DNA of 64,000 bases, taken from Alcaligenaceae bacterium CGII-47. GTDB taxonomy: Bacteria; Pseudomonadota; Gammaproteobacteria; Burkholderiales; Burkholderiaceae_B. Shown here piece after piece: positions 55,029-64,000 of the stretch (within the stretch, counting starts at the first letter, position 1; the number at the start of each line of letters is the position of its first letter). The position numbers and the translations under genes are program-made. Where the stretch lies: positions 163,066 through 227,065 of the forward strand of contig JAHTBO010000001.1 in assembly GCA_019166125.1 (NCBI GenBank). The letters are read 5' to 3'. Below the pieces are notes generated by a model, which saw only the letters and a list, made by a program, of their open reading frames with translations, searched no databases and was not told the origin of the DNA.

Positions 55029-55305
55029 GTTGTGGTTCCGCTTTGAGAAGTCTGCCAGGCTTTGATTTTATCAAGTCGGCTCATTGTTGTGCTGTAAGGA
55101 CTAGCCAGCGTACCTGGATAGTGAGGCTGTCATTGATTTAATGTTTTTTCTAGTACTTTTGTATTAATCATTCAGGTATACGAAGCATACCTAATTACAA
55201 CTTCTATCCTATATGTGAGCATACACAAGAAAAGTAATATTGCTCTCACGCGGTAGATTCATCCAGCGATACAGGTGCGGTTTTGTAACGTTATAGGATA
55301 AAGAA
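55029..55305 (+). promoter_or_regulatory. AT-rich upstream region of the curli-PGA cluster
   Basis: This 277-bp region is visibly AT-rich and probably holds the promoter of the whole biofilm cluster. It contains an inverted repeat AGGTAT-N7-ATACCT at 55174-55192, a size fitting a LuxR/FixJ-type dimer site. A second, looser pair TGAGCA (55216-55221) / TGCTCTCA (55241-55248) lies downstream. No csgD gene is present in the window. The csgE ribosome-binding site AGGAT lies at 55294-55298. Confidence 0.5.
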
Positions 55306-55755
55306 GTGTCCAAATGTGTATTGGCATTGAGTTTGATTTTAATCTCTTCAACGGGACAATTCAGTGACGTCTGGGCACAACAACCTGATCAACCCATAAA
55401 AGTTCCGGATTCAAAGAAACTAGATAATGAACCTTTGCGTGGATTGATTATTAATCGAACTATCACTGTATTGGGATGGGACTTTTACAAAGGTTTTTCC
55501 GAGATTTGGCAGGCCTTATATCCAGATTCTAAAAACACACTCATCGTTATTGAACGACCAACAGCTAAATATGGGAGTGAAATCTGGATTAGTTACGAAA
55601 ATCAAAATGTATTTCACACCTTTCTGTCCCCAATGCGATCACGGGCAAGGGAGGAGAGTAAGCAGGCAGTGGATATCGTTCACAAAACTGTTGCCGATAT
55701 CGAAATTCGGCGCAAATTGTTTCAGGATGCCGATCTGGGTCCGGAGGAGATGTAA
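55306..55755 (+). CDS. csgE: Curli assembly/transport component CsgE
   Basis: CsgE is the periplasmic cap that guides the curli subunits to the CsgG pore. The 149-aa product has a signal peptide (about 1-25, ending VWA) and the family segments LIINRTITVLGWDFYKGFSEIW, ERPTAKYGSEIWI and VFHTFLSPMR. It starts with GTG after AGGATAAAGAA. It is the first gene of csgEFG-B-A-H, abutting csgF. Base composition is lower in GC than the flanks. Confidence 0.93.
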   Translation: MSKCVLALSLILISSTGQFSDVWAQQPDQPIKVPDSKKLDNEPLRGLIINRTITVLGWDFYKGFSEIWQALYPDSKNTLIVIERPTAKYGSEIWISYENQNVFHTFLSPMRSRAREESKQAVDIVHKTVADIEIRRKLFQDADLGPEEM

Positions 55756-56145
55756 ATGAATTTTATAAAAAATCGGTGTGGCAGTCCCAGAACAAAACTG
55801 CAGGTGCTCCTGGCTACCGTTGCTGTTCTTCCATTGCTTGCTGGGCCTGTTGTCGCGAGTCAATTAATTTACACGCCCGTGAATCCGGCTTTTGGCGGAA
55901 GTCCGCTAAATGGCCCGTACCTATTACAGAAGGCTCAGGCAGGCAAAAATTACACCATGCCTATGGATGATCTGGATTTTTTGAATTCATTTGGAATAAT
56001 TGCTCAGACTGATACTGCAATTATATTTAAAAAGGGTGACAAATATTATTCCTATGATATAGCCAGTGGCGCACTACGCTATATTGATTTTGATAATCCC
56101 ATGAGTACTGGGGCAACTGCCTCAGTCGGCGATTTGGGCAAATAG
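55756..56145 (+). CDS. csgF: Curli assembly component CsgF
   Basis: CsgF sits on the outside of the CsgG pore and helps nucleator anchoring. The 129-aa product has a signal peptide (residues 1-35, ending VVAS) and the conserved mature start SQLIYTPVNPAFGGSPLNG, the part that plugs into CsgG. The start codon follows the csgE stop directly, with GGAGGAG inside csgE as ribosome-binding site. Confidence 0.94.
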   Translation: MNFIKNRCGSPRTKLQVLLATVAVLPLLAGPVVASQLIYTPVNPAFGGSPLNGPYLLQKAQAGKNYTMPMDDLDFLNSFGIIAQTDTAIIFKKGDKYYSYDIASGALRYIDFDNPMSTGATASVGDLGK

Positions 56146-56153
56146 GAGCCATT

Positions 56154-57104
56154 ATGCCAGCACTGCTTTCGCTCTCTATGCCCCGTGCCGGGCGCCTATG
56201 TATGGTCGCGCTCGCATCACTCACCTTGTCGGCTTGCGCCCTGCAAAAGCCAACAAACGTTTCGGCCCAAGCGCAATTGACGCCTTCCACACCGTCTACA
56301 GTTGCGTTGAGGACGCTACCACCTCCGCAGAGGAAAATTGTGGCAGCGGTCTATGGGTTTCGAGATGAGACAGGGCAATACAAACCTGCGCCAGACAGTT
56401 CATTCTCCACGGCTGTGACACAGGGTGCGGCAGCGATGCTGATGAAGGCGCTAAAGGATTCAGGTTGGTACATCCCGGTAGAACGTGACGGCCTGCAGTC
56501 GCTTTTGACTGAGCGTCGCGTGTTACGTGCTGTTGATGAGCAGCCAGCCCAAGGGGGGGGAGGGCGACCGATTGCTGTTCCCAATCTATTACCGGCTTCC
56601 ATCATTCTGGAGGGCGGGGTGATTGGATATGACAGCAATACACGTACAGGTGGCGTGGGTGCTCAGTTTTTAGGTATTGGCACATCAACCAAGTACAGCG
56701 TGGATCAGGTCACGATCAGTCTACGAGCTGTCGACGTCATGACAGGCGCCATTTTGGATAGCGTCTCGACCACCAAGACAATTCTGTCCTATGAAATTCA
56801 TCCGAGCTACTTTCGTTTTGTGAATTATTACGACTTGCTCGAGATCGAGGCGGGTTATACCCACAACGAGCCAACTCAGCTTGCTGTCAAGGAGGCAATT
56901 GATGCAGCCGTGATGCATCTGACTGTGCAGGGTATCAAAAACAATCAATGGCAGCTAAAAAATCCAGATGACTGGAACTCACCCATCATTCAGCGGTACT
57001 TGCAGGCTGAAAATGATTACGCAGTGAGCGTGACGCCTTGGCAGGATGGCAATACGTCTGGGGTTGCGGTGCCGGCAGTGACGGACAAGCAGTCTACCTT
57101 GTAG
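56154..57104 (+). CDS. csgG: Curli secretion channel lipoprotein CsgG
   Basis: CsgG forms the nonameric outer-membrane pore that secretes curli subunits. The 316-aa lipoprotein has a lipobox LSAC (Cys28) and the family core VYGFRDETGQYKPAP, STAVTQGAAAMLMKALKDSG, LEGGVIGYDSNTRTGGVG and TKTILSYEI. It follows AGGAGCCATT. It is longer than the E. coli protein, mostly in the N-terminal linker and C terminus. Confidence 0.96.
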   Translation: MPALLSLSMPRAGRLCMVALASLTLSACALQKPTNVSAQAQLTPSTPSTVALRTLPPPQRKIVAAVYGFRDETGQYKPAPDSSFSTAVTQGAAAMLMKALKDSGWYIPVERDGLQSLLTERRVLRAVDEQPAQGGGGRPIAVPNLLPASIILEGGVIGYDSNTRTGGVGAQFLGIGTSTKYSVDQVTISLRAVDVMTGAILDSVSTTKTILSYEIHPSYFRFVNYYDLLEIEAGYTHNEPTQLAVKEAIDAAVMHLTVQGIKNNQWQLKNPDDWNSPIIQRYLQAENDYAVSVTPWQDGNTSGVAVPAVTDKQSTL

Positions 57105-57143
57105 AGGGGAGATTGATCCGTATCACATTATTAGGAGTCAAAA

Positions 57144-57692
57144 ATGTCTGAATTTACAACCACCAAGATTTGCACCAACGTTTATCGTCGGTTGGCAATG
57201 AGCACCGTTGCTCTATTGGTAAGCGCTCCGATAGCTGCTTATTGTCAAAGCCCGGATTTGGCAGCAGCGTCAGAACTTCCTGCTTCAGAACTCAGTATTA
57301 CCTCACTTGACGCGTCAGTTGTTCAACGAGGAGAGATGAATGCTAGCAATATAGACCAGAGAGGCGTATCTGAACGCGCTTCTGTTAGGCAATATGGCTA
57401 TGGCAATCATGTGGGCATCACACAATCCGGCAGTGATAATTTGGCTACGGCAGCCCAATATGGAATTGGAAATAATGTGCAGTTTTCCCAATATGGTAAT
57501 AATGATTCAGCGATTGCCAATCAATACGGGATAGGTAATCAGGCAACGGTCAATCAATACGCAAGCAATGCCAGCGCAGCAGTGAATCAGATTGGAAATT
57601 TGAATCAAGCTACTGTTGTGCAAACGTTACCCGGTGTGCTGATGCCTATTTATCAGATCGGTCATAACTTGGAAATAACGTTGTTTAAATAA
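57144..57692 (+). CDS. csgB: Curli minor subunit/nucleator-like CsgB
   Basis: The 182-aa secreted protein has a signal peptide (about 1-35) and a mature region with about five 22-residue curlin repeats of the type QYG-x2-N-x-A-x3-Q (ARQYGYGNHVGITQ-like, QYGIGNNVQFSQYG, QYGIGNQATVNQY). The C terminus, IYQIGHNLEITLFK, is unlike the repeats, as in CsgB, where the last repeat anchors the fibre. CsgB versus CsgA was judged by position and the divergent C-terminal part. It follows TTAGGAGTCAAAA. Confidence 0.85.
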   Translation: MSEFTTTKICTNVYRRLAMSTVALLVSAPIAAYCQSPDLAAASELPASELSITSLDASVVQRGEMNASNIDQRGVSERASVRQYGYGNHVGITQSGSDNLATAAQYGIGNNVQFSQYGNNDSAIANQYGIGNQATVNQYASNASAAVNQIGNLNQATVVQTLPGVLMPIYQIGHNLEITLFK

Positions 57693-57778
57693 TTTATTTG
57701 TTTTTAACAAAGCCCGGTATCAAGGCCGCCGGGTGGCGTGTTCAACTCAGGTCTTGTCGACTTCAAAGGAACTTCACC

Positions 57779-58534
57779 ATGAAAACGACTCTTTGCGTAT
57801 TGGCATCCGGACTTGCGATGGCTTTTGCCGGGACGTCAGCGTTTGCAGCAAGCTCAACCGCTGAGACCTATCAAAGTGGCTTCAACAACGATGCAAATAT
57901 TTCTCAGTCATATAACACAGACGCCACGGCCTATATCGGGCAGGAAGGTAGCTTAAATGTTGCATCGGCTGCGCAAGATCATTCACATGCAAAAATTGAT
58001 ATTTCGCAGGCGGGATTTAATAACTCGGCTAATGCCAAACAACATTCTACGTCCCATTCCAATTCGGATATTGTTCAAAAGGGTAGTATGAATGTGGCTA
58101 ATACCACGCAGAGAAATGGGTACGAGCAGAATGCTGATGTTTATCAAGCCGGTTTCAATAATACGGCCAATGTAAAACAAGAGTGGACTGCGTATTCGGA
58201 TTCAACGATTGTCCAGAAGGGTGATATGAACGTGGCAAGTACGGATCAGCAAAATGGAATTGGTCTTAGCGCTGATATCTATCAAGCTGGCTTTAACAAC
58301 TCGGCCAAGGCTGTTCAAAATGGGAGCTGGGGTGCGGATTCTGTAATTGTCCAGAAGGGCGATTTAAATGTCGCCAATACAACCCAGAAAAATGGTTTTG
58401 ACCAATCAGCCGATATCTATCAGGCAGGGTTTAACAATACGTCCAATGTCAACCAGACAGGTTCCTTTTTGAGTGCTACCGCCACTCAGTTGGGAAGTAT
58501 GAATGTCAGCAATATTACCCAGGTAGGCTGGTAA
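57779..58534 (+). CDS. csgA: Curli major subunit-like CsgA, ten repeats
   Basis: The 251-aa secreted amyloid has a signal peptide ending FAA (about 1-23) and ten repeats of 22-23 residues alternating two types: YQAGFNN-x-A-x3-Q and VQKG-x2-NVA-x2-TQ. Units pair into a 46-residue (138-bp) double repeat. E. coli CsgA has five units. Each keeps the Gln, Gly, Asn and Gln ladder that stacks in the beta-solenoid. The start follows AAAGGAACTTCACC; an upstream frame extension lacks a leader. Confidence 0.88.
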   Translation: MKTTLCVLASGLAMAFAGTSAFAASSTAETYQSGFNNDANISQSYNTDATAYIGQEGSLNVASAAQDHSHAKIDISQAGFNNSANAKQHSTSHSNSDIVQKGSMNVANTTQRNGYEQNADVYQAGFNNTANVKQEWTAYSDSTIVQKGDMNVASTDQQNGIGLSADIYQAGFNNSAKAVQNGSWGADSVIVQKGDLNVANTTQKNGFDQSADIYQAGFNNTSNVNQTGSFLSATATQLGSMNVSNITQVGW

Positions 58535-58538
58535 ATCC

Positions 58539-58591
58539 CCAAGCCCCTCTGGGGGCTTGGCTACAAAAGGCCCGCCGGGCCTTTTGTAGCC
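58539..58591 (+). terminator. Double hairpin between csgA and csgH
   Basis: First stem CCAAGCCCC/GGGGCTTGG (58539-58560), then a perfect 15-bp stem GGCTACAAAAGGCCC/GGGCCTTTTGTAGCC with a 3-nt loop (58559-58591). No T-run follows, so full termination is doubtful; mRNA protection of csgA and attenuation of downstream csgH-pga are possible. Confidence 0.75.
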
Positions 58592-58627
58592 AGAGAGGAT
58601 GTGATGGAAACATTTTAGGAAATAATC

Positions 58628-58945
58628 ATGATGGCAGCCGATGTGAATTTGCAGGTATGGCTCGAAACGGTCCCTAATACCCATCCCAGCGTGATTATTC
58701 CCTATGTGCAGGGACCCAAAAGCGGCACGGTTCAATATCAGCTGAACACCATCAAGCAGGGACATGGCGGTATATCACGTATCAGCCAGAGTGGCGATGC
58801 ACAAATGCATGCCAATCAACCAACGGCCTTATCCAGATTTTCAATTTCTGTTGGAAAAGAAGATCAGTGCCGTATTGAGTTAATTCTGGTTGCAAATGGG
58901 GATCCAGCAGGAACTTATCGCTTCGATTGCCCCTATTCGCAGTAA
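58628..58945 (+). CDS. csgH: CsgC/CsgH-like curli chaperone without visible leader
   Basis: The 105-aa protein resembles CsgC/CsgH, an immunoglobulin-like chaperone that stops premature curli assembly in the periplasm. Its C-terminal part, ANQPTALSRFSISVGKEDQC followed by a hydrophobic strand, lines up with CsgC. Two cysteines (about 87 and 101) could pair. No signal peptide is visible, and the frame is closed by a stop 12 nt upstream. The start follows AGGAAATAATC. It is 7 nt before pgaA. Whether it is cytoplasmic or exported otherwise is open. Confidence 0.72.
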   Translation: MMAADVNLQVWLETVPNTHPSVIIPYVQGPKSGTVQYQLNTIKQGHGGISRISQSGDAQMHANQPTALSRFSISVGKEDQCRIELILVANGDPAGTYRFDCPYSQ

Positions 58946-58952
58946 CAGCTTA

Positions 58953-61406
58953 ATGACATCCTTCATATCGTGCGCGGCGATTGTTATGATGCTCTCTTGC
59001 ACTTTGCCTGTATCATCATGGGCCAGAGGGGGGGCTGATCATTATGATGCATTGATTCGTGATGCGCGTAGTGGAAATTATAATCCTGCGCTATTAATGT
59101 TGGATCAGCGTCTGCAACAAGAGCCACATGATCGTCGTGCATTTTCTGATTTTATTCTTATTTCGGACTGGGCAGGTCACAGCCGTCAGATCATCGATGT
59201 CTACGAGCGCATAGGCTCGGTTCAAAAGCTCGACGCTCAGCCTTTGGCCGCAGTTGCTCGGGCTTATCGAAATGAGCAGCAATGGGATAAGGCCCTCATG
59301 CTGTACCAGGTTGGTGAGCGACGTTTTCGCTCACAAAATGTATTTGTGCTTGGGCATATTATGACCTTGGCTGATGCGCGACGCTCGCAGGACGCAATTG
59401 ACCTTGGAATGAAACTCGTCGCCCAGCAGCCTAATAGCGCTGATGGCCGGCTGGCTCTAGGCTATGCCTACCACATGGATGGCCAACCCTATGCCTCACT
59501 GGCACAGGCCTCTAGAGCTTATGATCTGGAACCAGGAAAGGCATACGTTGTAAGCGCCTATATCTCTGCTTTACAGCAGGCGCAACTACCCCAAGCGGCC
59601 TTGCGCGAAGCGCAAGCACATCCAGATGTGATGACCCCGGCACAGATCCGTACGTTGGAGGCAGACGTCGCTGCGCAGCTGACGCGTGTGGCGGCTGCGA
59701 ATTCTCGTGGGGAGGCCAGCCGGTTTGATCTCGCTGACCAGGTACTGATAATGTATGACGCGCTTATTTCCAAATGGAAGGCACTCGGGCCTTCTGCACA
59801 TACTGATGTGCTACGTGTTGAAGTGGATCGACTCCAGGCCTTATATGCACGCCGCCGCATGCAGGATGTCATCACCAGCTATGAGTCTTTGTTGGCCCAA
59901 GGCGTGAGCATTCCAGACTATGCCCTGGGTGATGTGGGAGACGCTTACTTGCATCAGCGTCAACCTGATCGCGCGAAACCGCTCTTGCGTCGAGCATTGG
60001 CCGCTGCGTCGAGTGCCTCGACAAGCGGCACGCCAGTGGGAGCTCAGACGAGACTGTACTACGCGCTCACGGAGTCTGGTGCGTATGGGGAGGCAGATGC
60101 GGTGTTGAGTGCTGCGGTGGCTGAACAGCCCACTTGGCTTTATTTCAAGGGGAACCCGAGCCGCCAGCCCAATGACGCGAAACTTCATCTCGATCTCGTC
60201 CAGACGATGGGCGCGCTATATGGAGGCCGCTCGTTGGAGGCGCAGCAACGACTCGATCAGATGGTAAACGTCGCGCCCAGTAATTCTAGCCTTCGGGCTG
60301 CACGCGCCCAAATATATCGGGCACGTGCGCTACCCAGACATGCCGAGCGTGATCTTAAGTACGCAGAAAATGAAGCGCCACGTTCCATTGAAGTGGAAGT
60401 CGGCCAGGCCGCGACGGCACTTGATTTGCAGGAATGGCATCAAGCTGACCTGCTGCGAACCGATGTCATGATGCGCGCCCCTGAGGATCTATCTGCTCAG
60501 CGATTAAATCGTGCGTGGGAAGTTCACAATATGTCCGAGTTGCAGGTGAGTGCGAGCCGTGGTGTATCGACGGATAGCCCGGTGATGGGCACTCAGGACT
60601 TCAATATCGATTCCGTACTCTACTCGCCACCGATCAATGAGAATTGGCGCGTTTTTGCTGGCTTAGGCTATTCAACGGGTGAGTTTGGTGAAGGTCGTGG
60701 CGACTATCACTGGATACGCTCTGGCGCTCAGTGGCGCAGTCGCAATATCACTGCTCAGGCTGAAATTTCCGGAAATGATTTTGGGTATGGTCAGCATATA
60801 GGGGGCGCGCTATCGACAGCGATTGATCTGAATGATCATTGGCAAGTCGGTGGGGCTGCCGCGTTGATGTCACGTACAACGCCCCTTCGAGCACTGAAAA
60901 ACGATATTACGGCAAACAGCCTGTCGGCCTATCTGCGATGGCGAGGTGATGAACGGCGCGAATGGCAATTCTCTTTGTCCGCGTCGCGGTTTACGGATGA
61001 TAACGAGCGCATCGAAGCGGATTTGAGTGGTCGTCAGCGGCTGTACACGACGCCAAATTTCAAGATCGATGCCTTGCTTGATCTGGCCGTATCGCGCAAC
61101 ACACTGAGCAATACACCGTACTTCAATCCCGCCTCCGACCTCACGGTGCTTCCTGCACTGCAGTTCACACATACGCTCTATCGCCACTACGAGACGCAAT
61201 GGGAGCAGCAACTACTGATCGGGGTGGGCACGTATTCACAGCAGGATTTTGGCACAGGAGGTGTATTCACGATCGGCTACGGGCAACGCTTTCGCTATAA
61301 CGATGTTCTGGATATCGGGTTCAAAGTGTCCAGTACGGCCAGGCCATATGACGGTGTGCGTGAGCGAGATCTGGATGTGTTCGTCGATATGACGTATAGA
61401 TTTTAG
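58953..61406 (+). CDS. pgaA: Poly-beta-1,6-N-acetylglucosamine export porin PgaA
   Basis: PgaA exports the exopolysaccharide PNAG across the outer membrane. The 817-aa product has a signal peptide (about 1-26), a TPR superhelix (about 30-510, e.g. ALMLYQVGERRFRSQ, DARRSQDAIDLGMKL) that binds deacetylated PNAG, and a C-terminal 16-strand barrel (about 510-817) ending in MTYRF. The ATG is 7 nt after csgH with a weak ribosome-binding site, suggesting coupling. Confidence 0.93.
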   Translation: MTSFISCAAIVMMLSCTLPVSSWARGGADHYDALIRDARSGNYNPALLMLDQRLQQEPHDRRAFSDFILISDWAGHSRQIIDVYERIGSVQKLDAQPLAAVARAYRNEQQWDKALMLYQVGERRFRSQNVFVLGHIMTLADARRSQDAIDLGMKLVAQQPNSADGRLALGYAYHMDGQPYASLAQASRAYDLEPGKAYVVSAYISALQQAQLPQAALREAQAHPDVMTPAQIRTLEADVAAQLTRVAAANSRGEASRFDLADQVLIMYDALISKWKALGPSAHTDVLRVEVDRLQALYARRRMQDVITSYESLLAQGVSIPDYALGDVGDAYLHQRQPDRAKPLLRRALAAASSASTSGTPVGAQTRLYYALTESGAYGEADAVLSAAVAEQPTWLYFKGNPSRQPNDAKLHLDLVQTMGALYGGRSLEAQQRLDQMVNVAPSNSSLRAARAQIYRARALPRHAERDLKYAENEAPRSIEVEVGQAATALDLQEWHQADLLRTDVMMRAPEDLSAQRLNRAWEVHNMSELQVSASRGVSTDSPVMGTQDFNIDSVLYSPPINENWRVFAGLGYSTGEFGEGRGDYHWIRSGAQWRSRNITAQAEISGNDFGYGQHIGGALSTAIDLNDHWQVGGAAALMSRTTPLRALKNDITANSLSAYLRWRGDERREWQFSLSASRFTDDNERIEADLSGRQRLYTTPNFKIDALLDLAVSRNTLSNTPYFNPASDLTVLPALQFTHTLYRHYETQWEQQLLIGVGTYSQQDFGTGGVFTIGYGQRFRYNDVLDIGFKVSSTARPYDGVRERDLDVFVDMTYRF

Positions 61407-61418
61407 GAGAGGCGCAAC

Positions 61419-63437
61419 ATGTCGCTCATGCTGGCTCGTCTGCAATTTCTGTTGTTGTGTTGCATCGCTCTGCTGGCAGGTTGTGCCACCAATGAGCCAG
61501 CGTTTGTTCCGCCCGCTGAGCGTCCTGTGAGTCGTGTTGACGAACCCTGGCCTGCCAATCACTTTCTGGCTCTGGCTTACCATGATATTGAGGATACCGA
61601 CCCGGATCAGCGCTTTTTATCGGTGCGTACCGACCTCTTTGTTGCTCAGATGCAATGGCTGCGCGACAACGGTTATCAGTCTGTATCAGTCGATCAGATT
61701 CTAAGCGCTCATCAGGGGGGTAAGCCCTTACCGCCCAAGGCTGTAATGCTTAGTTTTGATGATGGCTATGAGAGTTTTTATACCCGTGTATTTCCGATCT
61801 TGAAGGCATTCAAGTGGCCGGCGATCTGGGCCCCCGTAGGCTCATGGGTGAGCACACCCGCCGGCCAAAAAGTGAACTTCGGTGGACTGATGACGGCGCG
61901 TGATCGCTTTACCACCTGGGAGCAGGTACGCGAGCTATCCCGTTCCGGTCTGATCGAAATCGCATCACATACTGACGATCAACACAAAGGTATTCTGGCC
62001 AATCCTCAGGGAAATACCCAGCCTGCCGAAGCAACGCATCAATATGATCCGACGACACACACCTATGAATCGGATGAAGCCTACAAAAAACGCATTCGTG
62101 ATGATGCGCTGCGCATCAGTGACGCCATCCGCCAAGCGACGGGGCGGTCGCCTCGCGTGTGGATATGGCCCTATGGCGCGGCAGCAGGGGAAGCGATCGA
62201 AATTATTGGACAGCAGGGCTACAAAATTGCGCTCACGCTGGATGACGGCTTGGCTACAGTCGATCAACTGATGTCCGAGTCGCGCATGTTGGTGACGAAT
62301 TCACCGGATATGTCTGAGTTTGCACAATCCGTTTTAAGTACTGAGGTGCGCCCTAACGTTCGCGTTGCACAGGTTGATCTGGATTATGTTTACGATCCGG
62401 ACCCGGCTCAAATGGAGAAGAATCTGAGTGGTTTGGTTCAGCGTATTTCTGACTTAAAAATCAATACTGTCTTTTTGCAGGCGTTTGCTGATCCGAAGGG
62501 GGATGGTCTGGTCAGATCGGTCTATTTTCCAAATCGCTGGCTACCCATGCGCGCCGACCTATTCAATCGAACCTTATGGCAGCTGCAAACGCGTGCCAAA
62601 GTCAAAGTCTACGCATGGATGCCTGTGCTGAGTTTCGATCTGGATCCCGGGATTGAGCGCGTGGTGCGTTGGAACCCTGATTATCCTGGTGCTTCGCCTA
62701 GTGTGGATGTCTCACAATATCGACGGCTTTCCCCGTTTGATCCGCATGCTCGTGCCGCGATTATCGGACTATACGAAGACATCGCGCGCAACGCGCCAAT
62801 AAACGGTATCTTATTTCACGATGATGCGCTGATGAGCGATTTTGAGGACGCCAGTGCATCTGCGCTGAGCGCGTATCGTGAGGCAGGTCTGCCGGGTTCG
62901 GTACAGATGCTGCGCTCTGATCCGGCGATGCTGCAACGCTGGACACATTTCAAAAGTGCTTACCTGATCGATTTCACCCAGACCTTAATGCAGCATGTAC
63001 GGGCTATCCGTGGTCCGCAGGTCAAGTCTGCACGCAACCTCTACGCTGCACCTATCCTCAACCCGGACAGTGAGGAATGGTTCGCCCAGAACCTGGAGGA
63101 CTTCCTTAATGCCTATGACTGGACTGTTCCTATGGTGATGCCTTTAATGGAAAAGGTTCCGCCGGATCAGGCTCAGGCCTGGATTCGCCGACTGGTTGCG
63201 GCGGTGAAGCAGATTCCGGGCGCTTTGGACCGTACGATATTCGAGCTGCAAAGCCGCAACTGGGATCGGCCCGATCAACCGCCAGTGGATAGTAAGACGC
63301 TGGCTGAGTGGATGCAACTGTTGCAATTGGCGGGGGTGAGGAGTTTTGGCTATTACCCCGACGACTTCCTCCGGAATCAGCCTGAGCTGGAAGTTATCCG
63401 GCCTGCTATATCTAACGCTTGGTATCCCTACCAATGA
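61419..63437 (+). CDS. pgaB: PNAG N-deacetylase/hydrolase lipoprotein PgaB
   Basis: PgaB partly deacetylates PNAG in the periplasm so it can be exported by PgaA. The 672-aa lipoprotein has a lipobox LLAGC (Cys22), a carbohydrate-esterase-4 domain (about 45-310; SFDDGYE and SHTDDQHKG metal motifs) and a C-terminal glycosyl-hydrolase (GH153-type) domain (about 320-672, YAWMPVLSFDL, HDDALMSDFEDAS). It lies 12 nt after pgaA and overlaps pgaC by 4 nt. Confidence 0.95.
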   Translation: MSLMLARLQFLLLCCIALLAGCATNEPAFVPPAERPVSRVDEPWPANHFLALAYHDIEDTDPDQRFLSVRTDLFVAQMQWLRDNGYQSVSVDQILSAHQGGKPLPPKAVMLSFDDGYESFYTRVFPILKAFKWPAIWAPVGSWVSTPAGQKVNFGGLMTARDRFTTWEQVRELSRSGLIEIASHTDDQHKGILANPQGNTQPAEATHQYDPTTHTYESDEAYKKRIRDDALRISDAIRQATGRSPRVWIWPYGAAAGEAIEIIGQQGYKIALTLDDGLATVDQLMSESRMLVTNSPDMSEFAQSVLSTEVRPNVRVAQVDLDYVYDPDPAQMEKNLSGLVQRISDLKINTVFLQAFADPKGDGLVRSVYFPNRWLPMRADLFNRTLWQLQTRAKVKVYAWMPVLSFDLDPGIERVVRWNPDYPGASPSVDVSQYRRLSPFDPHARAAIIGLYEDIARNAPINGILFHDDALMSDFEDASASALSAYREAGLPGSVQMLRSDPAMLQRWTHFKSAYLIDFTQTLMQHVRAIRGPQVKSARNLYAAPILNPDSEEWFAQNLEDFLNAYDWTVPMVMPLMEKVPPDQAQAWIRRLVAAVKQIPGALDRTIFELQSRNWDRPDQPPVDSKTLAEWMQLLQLAGVRSFGYYPDDFLRNQPELEVIRPAISNAWYPYQ

Positions 63438-64000
63438 TCGAACGACTGCTCGCCTTGTTGATATTGTGCATTGTTCTGGGTGTTCCTTTAGGGACGGCGC
63501 TAATCTGGACGGGTGAGGTTACTTTGGACTTTGTATATTTTTACCCCTTGTTTATGTCTGGGCTATGGATGGTCGGTGGTCTGTATTATTGGCTACATTG
63601 GGAGCGCCACTGGGATTGGGGGGATGGGGTACCCGCCCCTGTACTGAGGGGTGAGCCGCTGATTGTGGTGTTGCTGCCGTGCTTTAATGAAATCGAACAT
63701 GGGCCAGCAGCGATCATGGCAGCGCTTGCGCAAAACTATCAAAATGTAAAAGTAATCGCTATTAATGACGGCTCTACTGATGGTACAGACGTCATGCTTG
63801 ATGAGTTGGCTGCCTCGGACGATCGGCTGCAGGTGATTCACTTGGCTCAGAATCAGGGTAAGGCAATGGCGCTGCGTATGGGTGCTCTGGCAGCAAACAG
63901 CGAATATCTGGTTTGTATCGATGGTGACGTCATTCTGGATCCAAATGCGGTGTCTTACCTGGTTGCGCCTCTTTTGGATAATCCGCGGGTTGGAGCAGTC
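63434..64000 (+). CDS. pgaC: PNAG synthase PgaC, N-terminal part (cut by window edge)
   Basis: PgaC is the inner-membrane GT2 enzyme that polymerises UDP-GlcNAc into PNAG, with PgaD and c-di-GMP in E. coli. The visible 189 codons show two N-terminal helices, then the GT-A start VVLLPCFNE, NDGSTDGT and CIDGDV. The ATG overlaps the pgaB stop (ATGA). The catalytic C-terminal half and pgaD, if present, lie beyond the window. Confidence 0.95.
   Translation, partial: MIERLLALLILCIVLGVPLGTALIWTGEVTLDFVYFYPLFMSGLWMVGGLYYWLHWERHWDWGDGVPAPVLRGEPLIVVLLPCFNEIEHGPAAIMAALAQNYQNVKVIAINDGSTDGTDVMLDELAASDDRLQVIHLAQNQGKAMALRMGALAANSEYLVCIDGDVILDPNAVSYLVAPLLDNPRVGAV

Follow-up and report, generated by a model that had tools for sequence, protein, structure and literature searches.

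Gene content and order of the csg-pga locus

The window examined here, a 64,000-nt stretch of Alcaligenaceae bacterium CGII-47 (contig JAHTBO010000001.1), ends in a row of genes on the + strand (55306-64000) in which the determinants of the amyloid curli run directly into those of the exopolysaccharide poly-N-acetylglucosamine (PNAG). The row reads csgE-csgF-csgG-csgB-csgA-csgC/H-pgaA-pgaB-pgaC, all of them open frames, and its content, order and strand, established by open reading frame calls together with Pfam and NCBIfam profiles, agree with a previous reading made from the letters alone (the sequence-only reading). From csgE to pgaB the successive gaps measure 0, 8, 39, 89, 93, 7 and 12 bp, and pgaB overlaps pgaC by 4 bp. 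The sequence-only reading had given gaps of 87 bp or less; the spacing is indeed short throughout, but two gaps (89 and 93 bp) exceed that figure. The 7-bp gap that it gave between the sixth csg gene and pgaA was recovered exactly, the pgaA ATG being located 7 bp past the csgC stop codon, and an alternative in-frame ATG of pgaA lies within csgC, at 58896.

The products of csgE (55306-55755; Pfam PF10627, 112.1 bits), csgF (55756-56145; PF10614, 47.4 bits over residues 22-71 only) and csgG (56154-57104; PF03783, 224.1 bits, 47% identity with E. coli CsgG) each exceed the Pfam cut-off, so that the locus encodes the pore of a curli (type VIII secretion) system by this measure. In CsgF, the alignment covers positions 5-54 of the 132 in the profile, which the C-terminal half does not resemble. 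Two curlin genes follow, one csgB-like (57144-57692) and one csgA-like (57782-58534). Both products carry curlin repeats (Pfam Curlin_rpt, 47.7 and 68.8 bits, respectively) and qualify as subunits on that basis, with best NCBIfam matches to CsgB (82.6 bits) and CsgA (93.7 bits) that stay below the cut-offs of 165 and 160. The sixth csg gene (58628-58945) encodes a curlin chaperone of the CsgC/CsgH family. Pfam accepts it as CsgC (Tafi-CsgC, 50.0 bits, cut-off 25) and not as CsgH (22.0 bits, cut-off 27), while NCBIfam accepts it as CsgH (49.7 bits, cut-off 35) and not as CsgC (49.4 bits, cut-off 75). Because the two collections point opposite ways, csgC/H is the fair name (csgC in what follows); the name csgH given by the sequence-only reading holds for NCBIfam and not for Pfam.

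The PNAG genes begin with pgaA (58953-61406; Pfam PgaA_barrel, 421.8 bits; NCBIfam TIGR03939, 802.2 bits) and pgaB (61419-63437; Pfam and NCBIfam). PgaB has the same residues as its E. coli counterpart (D, D, H, H, D) at the five positions that align with E. coli 114, 115, 184, 189 and 466, which we take to be the catalytic residues of the deacetylase and glycosidase. The 5′ part of pgaC (63434-64000) closes the window; beyond the window the gene continues as L003:9500-10834, followed by an overlapping pgaD (L003:10831-11289) and, 83 bp past pgaD, by a gene for a LuxR-type regulator (L003:11373-12254). Thus extended, the PNAG set is complete above the NCBIfam cut-offs (TIGR03939, 802 bits, for the PgaA porin; TIGR03938, 872 bits, for PgaB; TIGR03937, 607 bits, for the GT2 synthase PgaC; TIGR03940, 75 bits, for PgaD). 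Rfam gave no match between 55000 and 64000, and therefore no known structured RNA, and positions 58600-61400 had no match in the plasmid collection searched. Consensus scans were uninformative: promoter-like sites between 53000 and 64000 numbered 11 against 11.5 in shuffles, other promoter types being possible, and terminator-like sites 10 against 10.8.

When compared with the csgDEFG/csgBAC operons of E. coli, the window locus shares all secretion and subunit genes, the presence of a LuxR/FixJ-type regulator and, in the csgA-csgC gap, a hairpin that is possibly terminator-like in the window. In contrast, its csg genes lie on one strand in the order E-F-G-B-A-C, its regulator stands at the far 3′ end and scores far below the NCBIfam cut-off for CsgD, and pga is joined to csgC. 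The E. coli pgaABCD operon matches the four pga genes here and their order, with PgaABC identities of 36-59%, and forms a unit of its own. The sequence-only reading had described the E. coli csg and pga genes as two distant loci, which proved incorrect: in K-12 MG1655 (L155, record 1086106-1105293) pgaA reaches to 1,092,289 and csgG begins at 1,100,851, only ∼8.6 kb apart, whereas 7 bp separate the two modules in the window. The E. coli interval holds dgcT, an IS3 insertion sequence, a tRNA-Ser gene and other genes, and represents a loose linkage outside the family.

Linkage of csg and pga across the Alcaligenaceae

Profile searches of 268 genomes of the family found CsgE in 56 and the PgaB domain GHL13 in 89. 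We defined linkage as CsgE and PgaB within 8 kb of each other, considering PgaB matches only from genomes that also hold CsgE. PgaB was present in 40 of the 56 CsgE genomes, and in 36 of these 40 the two were linked, on the same strand in 35 and on opposite strands in one. Recurrence in 36 of the 40 genomes that have both genes shows that the linkage is not a matter of chance, and the possibility that the adjacency is private to the window genome is ruled out, as the sequence-only reading needed. It should be kept in mind that the linked genomes belong to one family, so the counts are not independent.

Three arrangements were distinguished among the 36 linked genomes. The most common, with pga first (pgaABCD-csg-luxR, hereafter the reverse order), occurs in 27, two of which (G028 and G200) are assigned on a partial GHL13 match; 22 of the 27 loci were fetched. 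The csg-then-pga order of the window occurs in eight, and one genome has an inverted csg block. Carriers of the window order are seven genomes of genus g1, including that of the window, plus Candidimonas nitroreducens. The ten genomes of g1 comprise these seven, one with the reverse order, one with csg and pgaCD only, and one without CsgE. The reverse-order loci of Pusillimonas, Pollutimonas, Paralcaligenes, Parapusillimonas and other Alcaligenaceae hold the same three modules as the window on one strand, with a related upstream motif, and differ from it in that pga lies upstream of csg, mostly has a motif copy of its own and belongs to another pga lineage. The four genomes in which CsgE and PgaB were scored as apart are one where pgaA still stands beside csgE (L017), one fragmented metagenome-assembled genome, and two Verticiella genomes whose pga is of a distant type.

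CsgE is rare outside the family. A sample of the order had CsgE in 10 of 349 genomes, two being family members, and a sample of the class in 6 of 369, one being the window's own genome. Of the CsgE genomes, 13 lay outside the family; three of these had PgaB as well, and in none of the three was it linked. The named relatives' loci were taken from the best 80 of 233 relatives; among these, the curli loci of Noviherbaspirillum, Herbaspirillum, Massilia and Burkholderia have csgEFG and curlin genes as in the window, and neither pga nor luxR was detected in the fetched stretches of non-family csg loci.

Several family loci show partial or altered gene sets. In Castellaniella caeni (L008 / L045) the row reads csgEFGBAC-pgaC-pgaD-luxR: pgaA and pgaB are gone, pgaCD are retained in place, and GHL13 has no match anywhere in the genome. 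In Pusillimonas minor (L017 / L063) pgaA directly precedes a long csgE frame, whose beginning is overlapped by a short frame with a PgaB match (43 bits), and pgaC and pgaD are not at the locus. The csg-linked PgaB of genus g20 (L037, L038) is short (594-612 aa), with a partial GHL13 match only; G028 and G200 of this genus have a second pgaB elsewhere, which in G028 lies within a whole pga set (L124). Finally, the linked locus of L022 (G211) looks degraded, with pgaB, csgE and csgG each broken into two frames.

The two gene orders carry different pga. In a PgaABC tree of 42 rows, window-order pga is nested in stand-alone pga (Shimodaira-Hasegawa-like approximate likelihood ratio test, SH-aLRT, 99; 18 rows), apart from reverse-order pga. 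Forcing all linked pga into one clade, with L132 (pga-luxR without csg) and A_g28 (a fragmented metagenome-assembled genome) counted as linked, lowered the log-likelihood by 41.9 units (approximately unbiased (AU) test, p-AU 0.003); a variant with both outside the linked group gave p 0.0013 and lnL 313.7, values inflated by that placement. The AU test was set up after inspection of the tree, which has some long branches. The tree is without L008 and without pga loci lacking a usable pgaB or pgaC, and for tree and tests alike 12 further rows were dropped (long outgroups, near-duplicates and the broken U_g5b). At least four changes between linked and unlinked states, in either direction, are required on this tree. 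Since linked pga is not one clade, linkage most simply arose twice. This suggests two joinings, as the simplest reading and not the only one; one joining plus several losses is possible and would weigh against it. An origin of the window order by a simple move of the pga of the common order was considered and is disfavoured by the PgaABC tree and the AU tests, while a move followed by gene replacement is possible.

Eoetvoesiella caeni (L006 / L044) combines both groups. In the csg tree (built without D_G009, U_g5b and U_g2b) its csg, Castellaniella-like, stands beside that of the window (SH-aLRT 99), and its pga and luxR are closest to those of reverse-order loci, a pattern best read as an exchange of modules with linkage kept. 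At this locus the pgaD-csgEFGBAC block is inverted between pgaC and luxR, and a second csg locus of the species (L007) has luxR upstream and no pga.

It is improbable, in our view, that csg and pga are two independent operons that were merely inherited side by side, with no functional meaning. Such a neutral neighbourhood would fit the kinship of the linked genomes, the 16 of 57 csgE loci that lie in genomes without a PgaB match, and a possible single joining with later losses. It is harder to reconcile with two gene orders that use different pga lineages, with the exchange of partners in E. caeni and with the lack of linkage in the CsgE+PgaB genomes outside the family.

The upstream motif and the LuxR-type regulator

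Expectation maximization (EM) applied to the pgaD-csgE gaps of 16 reverse-order loci retrieved a 20-bp motif, cTAcG.CaT.Ta.CgCATGT, with a likelihood of 141 compared to 50-57 for shuffles; it superseded a dyad count whose leads occurred in up to 7 of the 16 loci. The training loci were 16 of the 22 fetched, five being held out and L022 excluded, and scans used a threshold of 13 bits. The resulting position weight matrix recognized sites upstream of csgE in all 16 trained loci and in 4 of 5 held-out ones. The same csgE-trained matrix also reached the threshold ahead of pgaA, where 12 of the 16 loci and 2 of the 4 held out had a site (shuffles, 1/96 and 0/24). Conversely, training on the pgaA side alone yielded the same motif, TAaGCCgTatg.CGCATttt, which, scanned ahead of csgE, exceeded the 99% level of shuffles in 13 of the 16 loci, and did so in none of the controls (0/13 and 0/12).

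The control sets consisted of 13 of the 21 fetched pga loci without luxR and 12 of the non-family csg loci. No site of at least 13 bits was present in the 13 stand-alone pga upstreams, the 12 non-family csgE upstreams or 32 coding controls. On the pgaA side, 14 of 20 linked loci have the motif against 0 of 13 stand-alone ones (Fisher 5e-5, kinship not corrected), and its presence in linked loci and absence from stand-alone pga is a further point against a neutral neighbourhood. In nine whole genomes the exact consensus occurred at eight places in six genomes, all ahead of csgE or pgaA; matches at these two genes are expected by construction, the lack of other places is not.

In the window, a matrix trained on other genomes found a putative operator, TTACAACTTCTATCCTATAT, at 55195-55214 on the + strand (14.0 bits), ∼110 bp before csgE, which resembles the csgE/pgaA motif of the reverse-order relatives. 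It is the one match in the window (0 in its shuffles) and the only match in the genome at three mismatches or fewer, and none of 60 shuffles of the window group reached 13 bits. After retraining on eight window-group loci, the window's included, a diverged form of the motif appeared 100-139 bp before csgE in seven of the eight.

The linked loci also carry the gene for the LuxR-type regulator. The same luxR closes the row in both orders (pgaABCD-csgEFG(B)AC-luxR and csgEFGBAC-pgaABCD-luxR) and was found at 31 of 32 fetched linked-type loci, counting the C. caeni remnant and the inverted E. caeni locus; the 32nd is cut by a contig edge that carries a partial luxR match. Among unlinked pga loci it was present in 1 of 22, L132 (genus g60), which has pgaABCD-luxR without csg and keeps the motif before pgaA (17.5 bits); csg was apparently lost there from between pga and luxR. 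Loci with csg and luxR and without pga also exist, and the Verticiella csg locus has no detectable luxR in the fetched stretch.

The regulator aligns with the NCBIfam CsgD model over the helix-turn-helix (HTH) only, with 34.7 bits for an equivalog cut-off of 250. With E. coli CsgD itself, hhalign gave a probability of 94% over CsgD residues 74-208, and BLASTP aligned 52 residues with 38% identity. An AlphaFold model of the L050 relative (mean predicted local distance difference test score, pLDDT, 78.8; predicted template modelling score, pTM, 0.49) resembles response regulators, among them VraR, LiaR and VpsT, with whole-chain template modelling (TM) scores of 0.3-0.5. At the position where NarL-type receivers have Asp, the LuxR alignment shows mostly Ser, the assignment of that position being our own reading. 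The protein is thus predicted to combine a receiver-like N-terminal domain lacking the phospho-acceptor with a LuxR HTH, and would be CsgD-like rather than CsgD, at most working like it. The motif W[FLM][TS]R, presumably the signature of VpsT-type cyclic di-GMP receptors, was absent from all 34 LuxR sequences examined, which gives no indication of a receptor of that type.

We infer that the motif is an operator to which the linked LuxR-type protein binds. The confinement of the exact consensus to csgE and pgaA in the nine genomes suits a dedicated regulator of this kind. Several observations weigh against this assignment. The first matrix reaches 13 bits in only 2 of 10 window-group loci (the window and E. 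caeni), the remaining ones showing the diverged form only after retraining, and C. defragrans has no convincing motif at the expected place even with the retrained matrix. Only 3 of 13 distinct csg-luxR loci without the pga set (one cut short, one retaining a pgaA) reach the threshold, so that the presence of the motif tracks linked pga more closely than luxR. Of 43 loci whose fetched stretch has no luxR, two reach it as well: Verticiella L016, with the motif on the opposite strand, and L020, whose contig ends inside csgG. None of 15 luxR upstreams reached 13 bits, three of the nine genomes had no exact consensus match, and a reversed control pattern matched twice.

These observations bear on another explanation, in which an alternative sigma factor uses the motif as its core promoter, or an unlinked regulator binds it, and the linked LuxR does not. 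We regard this as possible, although we lean away from it. A near-fixed distance to csgE in the window group (114-115 bp in five of eight loci with the retrained matrix) is what such a site could look like, and the low count in csg-luxR loci without pga and the two motif loci without a visible luxR point in the same direction. On the other hand, the motif was absent from the 13 stand-alone pga loci and from the 12 luxR-less csg loci outside the family, was present in the one pga-luxR locus without csg and, as an exact consensus, matched only at csgE and pgaA. Binding of the motif by the linked LuxR-type regulator is a reasoned guess.

The hairpin behind csgA and proposed expression of the two modules

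The gap between csgA and csgC contains a hairpin with a 16-bp stem (58558-58592, + strand; region z -3.1), a candidate attenuator or mRNA end, with a smaller hairpin just before it (58542-58557). A hairpin past csgA is a common curli feature, and most of the loci examined have one behind their last curlin gene. Within 80 bases past that gene, the best hairpin averaged -33.5 kcal/mol in nine window-group loci and -27.8 kcal/mol in 21 reverse-order loci (L022 and D_G009 were left out of the hairpin comparisons), compared with means of -7.4 to -23.0 kcal/mol after the other genes of the row, where single values go to -39.8. The overall post-curlin mean was -29.5 kcal/mol against -17.5 in mononucleotide shuffles, and the hairpin was stronger than all eight shuffles in 26 of 30 loci. 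Weak cases were U_g5 (-15.2 kcal/mol) and L012, L052 and L091 (-12 to -14 kcal/mol). In C. denitrificans and E. coli the hairpin has a run of T behind it, which is the layout of an intrinsic terminator; in E. coli csgA the stem is followed by eight T. A point against termination in the window is that no T tract lies behind the full stem of 58558-58592 (a TTTT is inside the outer stem), and the hairpin is absent from the terminator-scan list.

The sequence-only reading proposed a joined unit making amyloid and exopolysaccharide in fixed proportion, and a matrix in which the two might interact. The joining is supported by the joint itself, since csgC and pgaA are separated by 54 bp or less in all eight csg-then-pga loci (in five the earliest possible pgaA start lies 12-54 bp beyond the csgC stop codon, in three it falls within csgC). 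A scan for the shared motif over the interval that opens 100 bp ahead of the csgA stop and closes 60 bp beyond the csgC stop gave no copy in any of the eight. The fixed proportion did not hold up: because the hairpin lies directly 3′ of csgA, equal output of csgA and pga is unlikely, and curlin mRNA is probably in excess over csgC-pga. The observation behind that reading is therefore confirmed and its interpretation partly supported.

We consider it very doubtful that the locus is one tight operon producing amyloid and PNAG in a constant ratio. The single strand, gaps of 0-93 bp and the short joint agree with such an operon. The strong hairpin past the last curlin gene and the T runs behind it in C. 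denitrificans and E. coli do not, nor does the pgaD-csgE gap of the reverse order, where a separate motif is present in all 16 trained loci and in 4 of the 5 held out. In 21 reverse-order loci this gap measures at most 71-667 bp. The reverse-order relatives give the impression of transcribing pga and csg as two adjacent units.

The opposite arrangement, in which the window pgaABCD has its own promoter within csgC or the csgA-csgC gap, so that csg and pga, though neighbours, would not share a transcript, we judge unlikely, if less so. The hairpin could end most transcripts, and consensus scans are blind to other promoter types, both of which would leave room for such a promoter. Against it stand the joint of at most 54 bp, the lack of a shared motif around csgC-pgaA in the eight loci and a number of promoter-like sites no higher than in shuffles.

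The reading that we favour, and hold to be fairly probable, is that of an Alcaligenaceae matrix locus whose curli and PNAG modules, retained alongside a gene for a CsgD-like LuxR-type regulator, form a single regulon. In the window, one operator/promoter ahead of csgE would serve csgEFG-BA-C-pgaABCD-luxR. RNA polymerase would transcribe csgEFGBA, most transcripts would end or be protected at the hairpin past csgA, and a fraction would continue past it into csgC, pgaABCD and luxR, the joint itself lacking a promoter. Both polymers would be switched on together, curlin in excess and PNAG lower but tied to it, and the regulator would feed back on its own expression. In the common order pgaABCD-csg-luxR, two operators, one before pgaA and one before csgE, would give the same end result. 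Joint production would be what selection favours. Because the modules seem to have been joined more than once and often to share a DNA signal, it is likely that cells produce curli and PNAG jointly, but without a constant ratio.

A stronger version, which we put forward only tentatively, is that amyloid and PNAG form a single co-selected matrix machine governed by a CsgD-like regulator with a near-private operator, to which pga was recruited at least twice and whose polymers are assembled as a composite. By one route pga would have been placed upstream with an operator copy of its own; by the other, a stand-alone pga would have been captured behind csgC and read from the curli operator.

No report of csg-pga linkage was found in the literature searched, most subscription papers and all bioRxiv preprints lying outside its coverage. 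As far as term searches reach, ‘pga’ is absent from the curli survey PMC3521004 and curli/csg from the main text of the operon survey PMC7112194, and the passages of PMC4551309 retrieved in this way contain no csg-pga linkage. The modules are known; neither the conserved island nor its pair of pga lineages nor the shared motif turned up in that literature.

Biofilm matrices usually hold both amyloid and polysaccharide, and selection for their joint production is hard to show. That the modules are joined in two orders, with pga from different lineages, and come with a regulator gene and a common upstream motif is genomic evidence for co-selection of curli and PNAG in this family, and Castellaniella defragrans and its relatives offer a natural system for testing the interaction of the two polymers and the ratio in which they are made.

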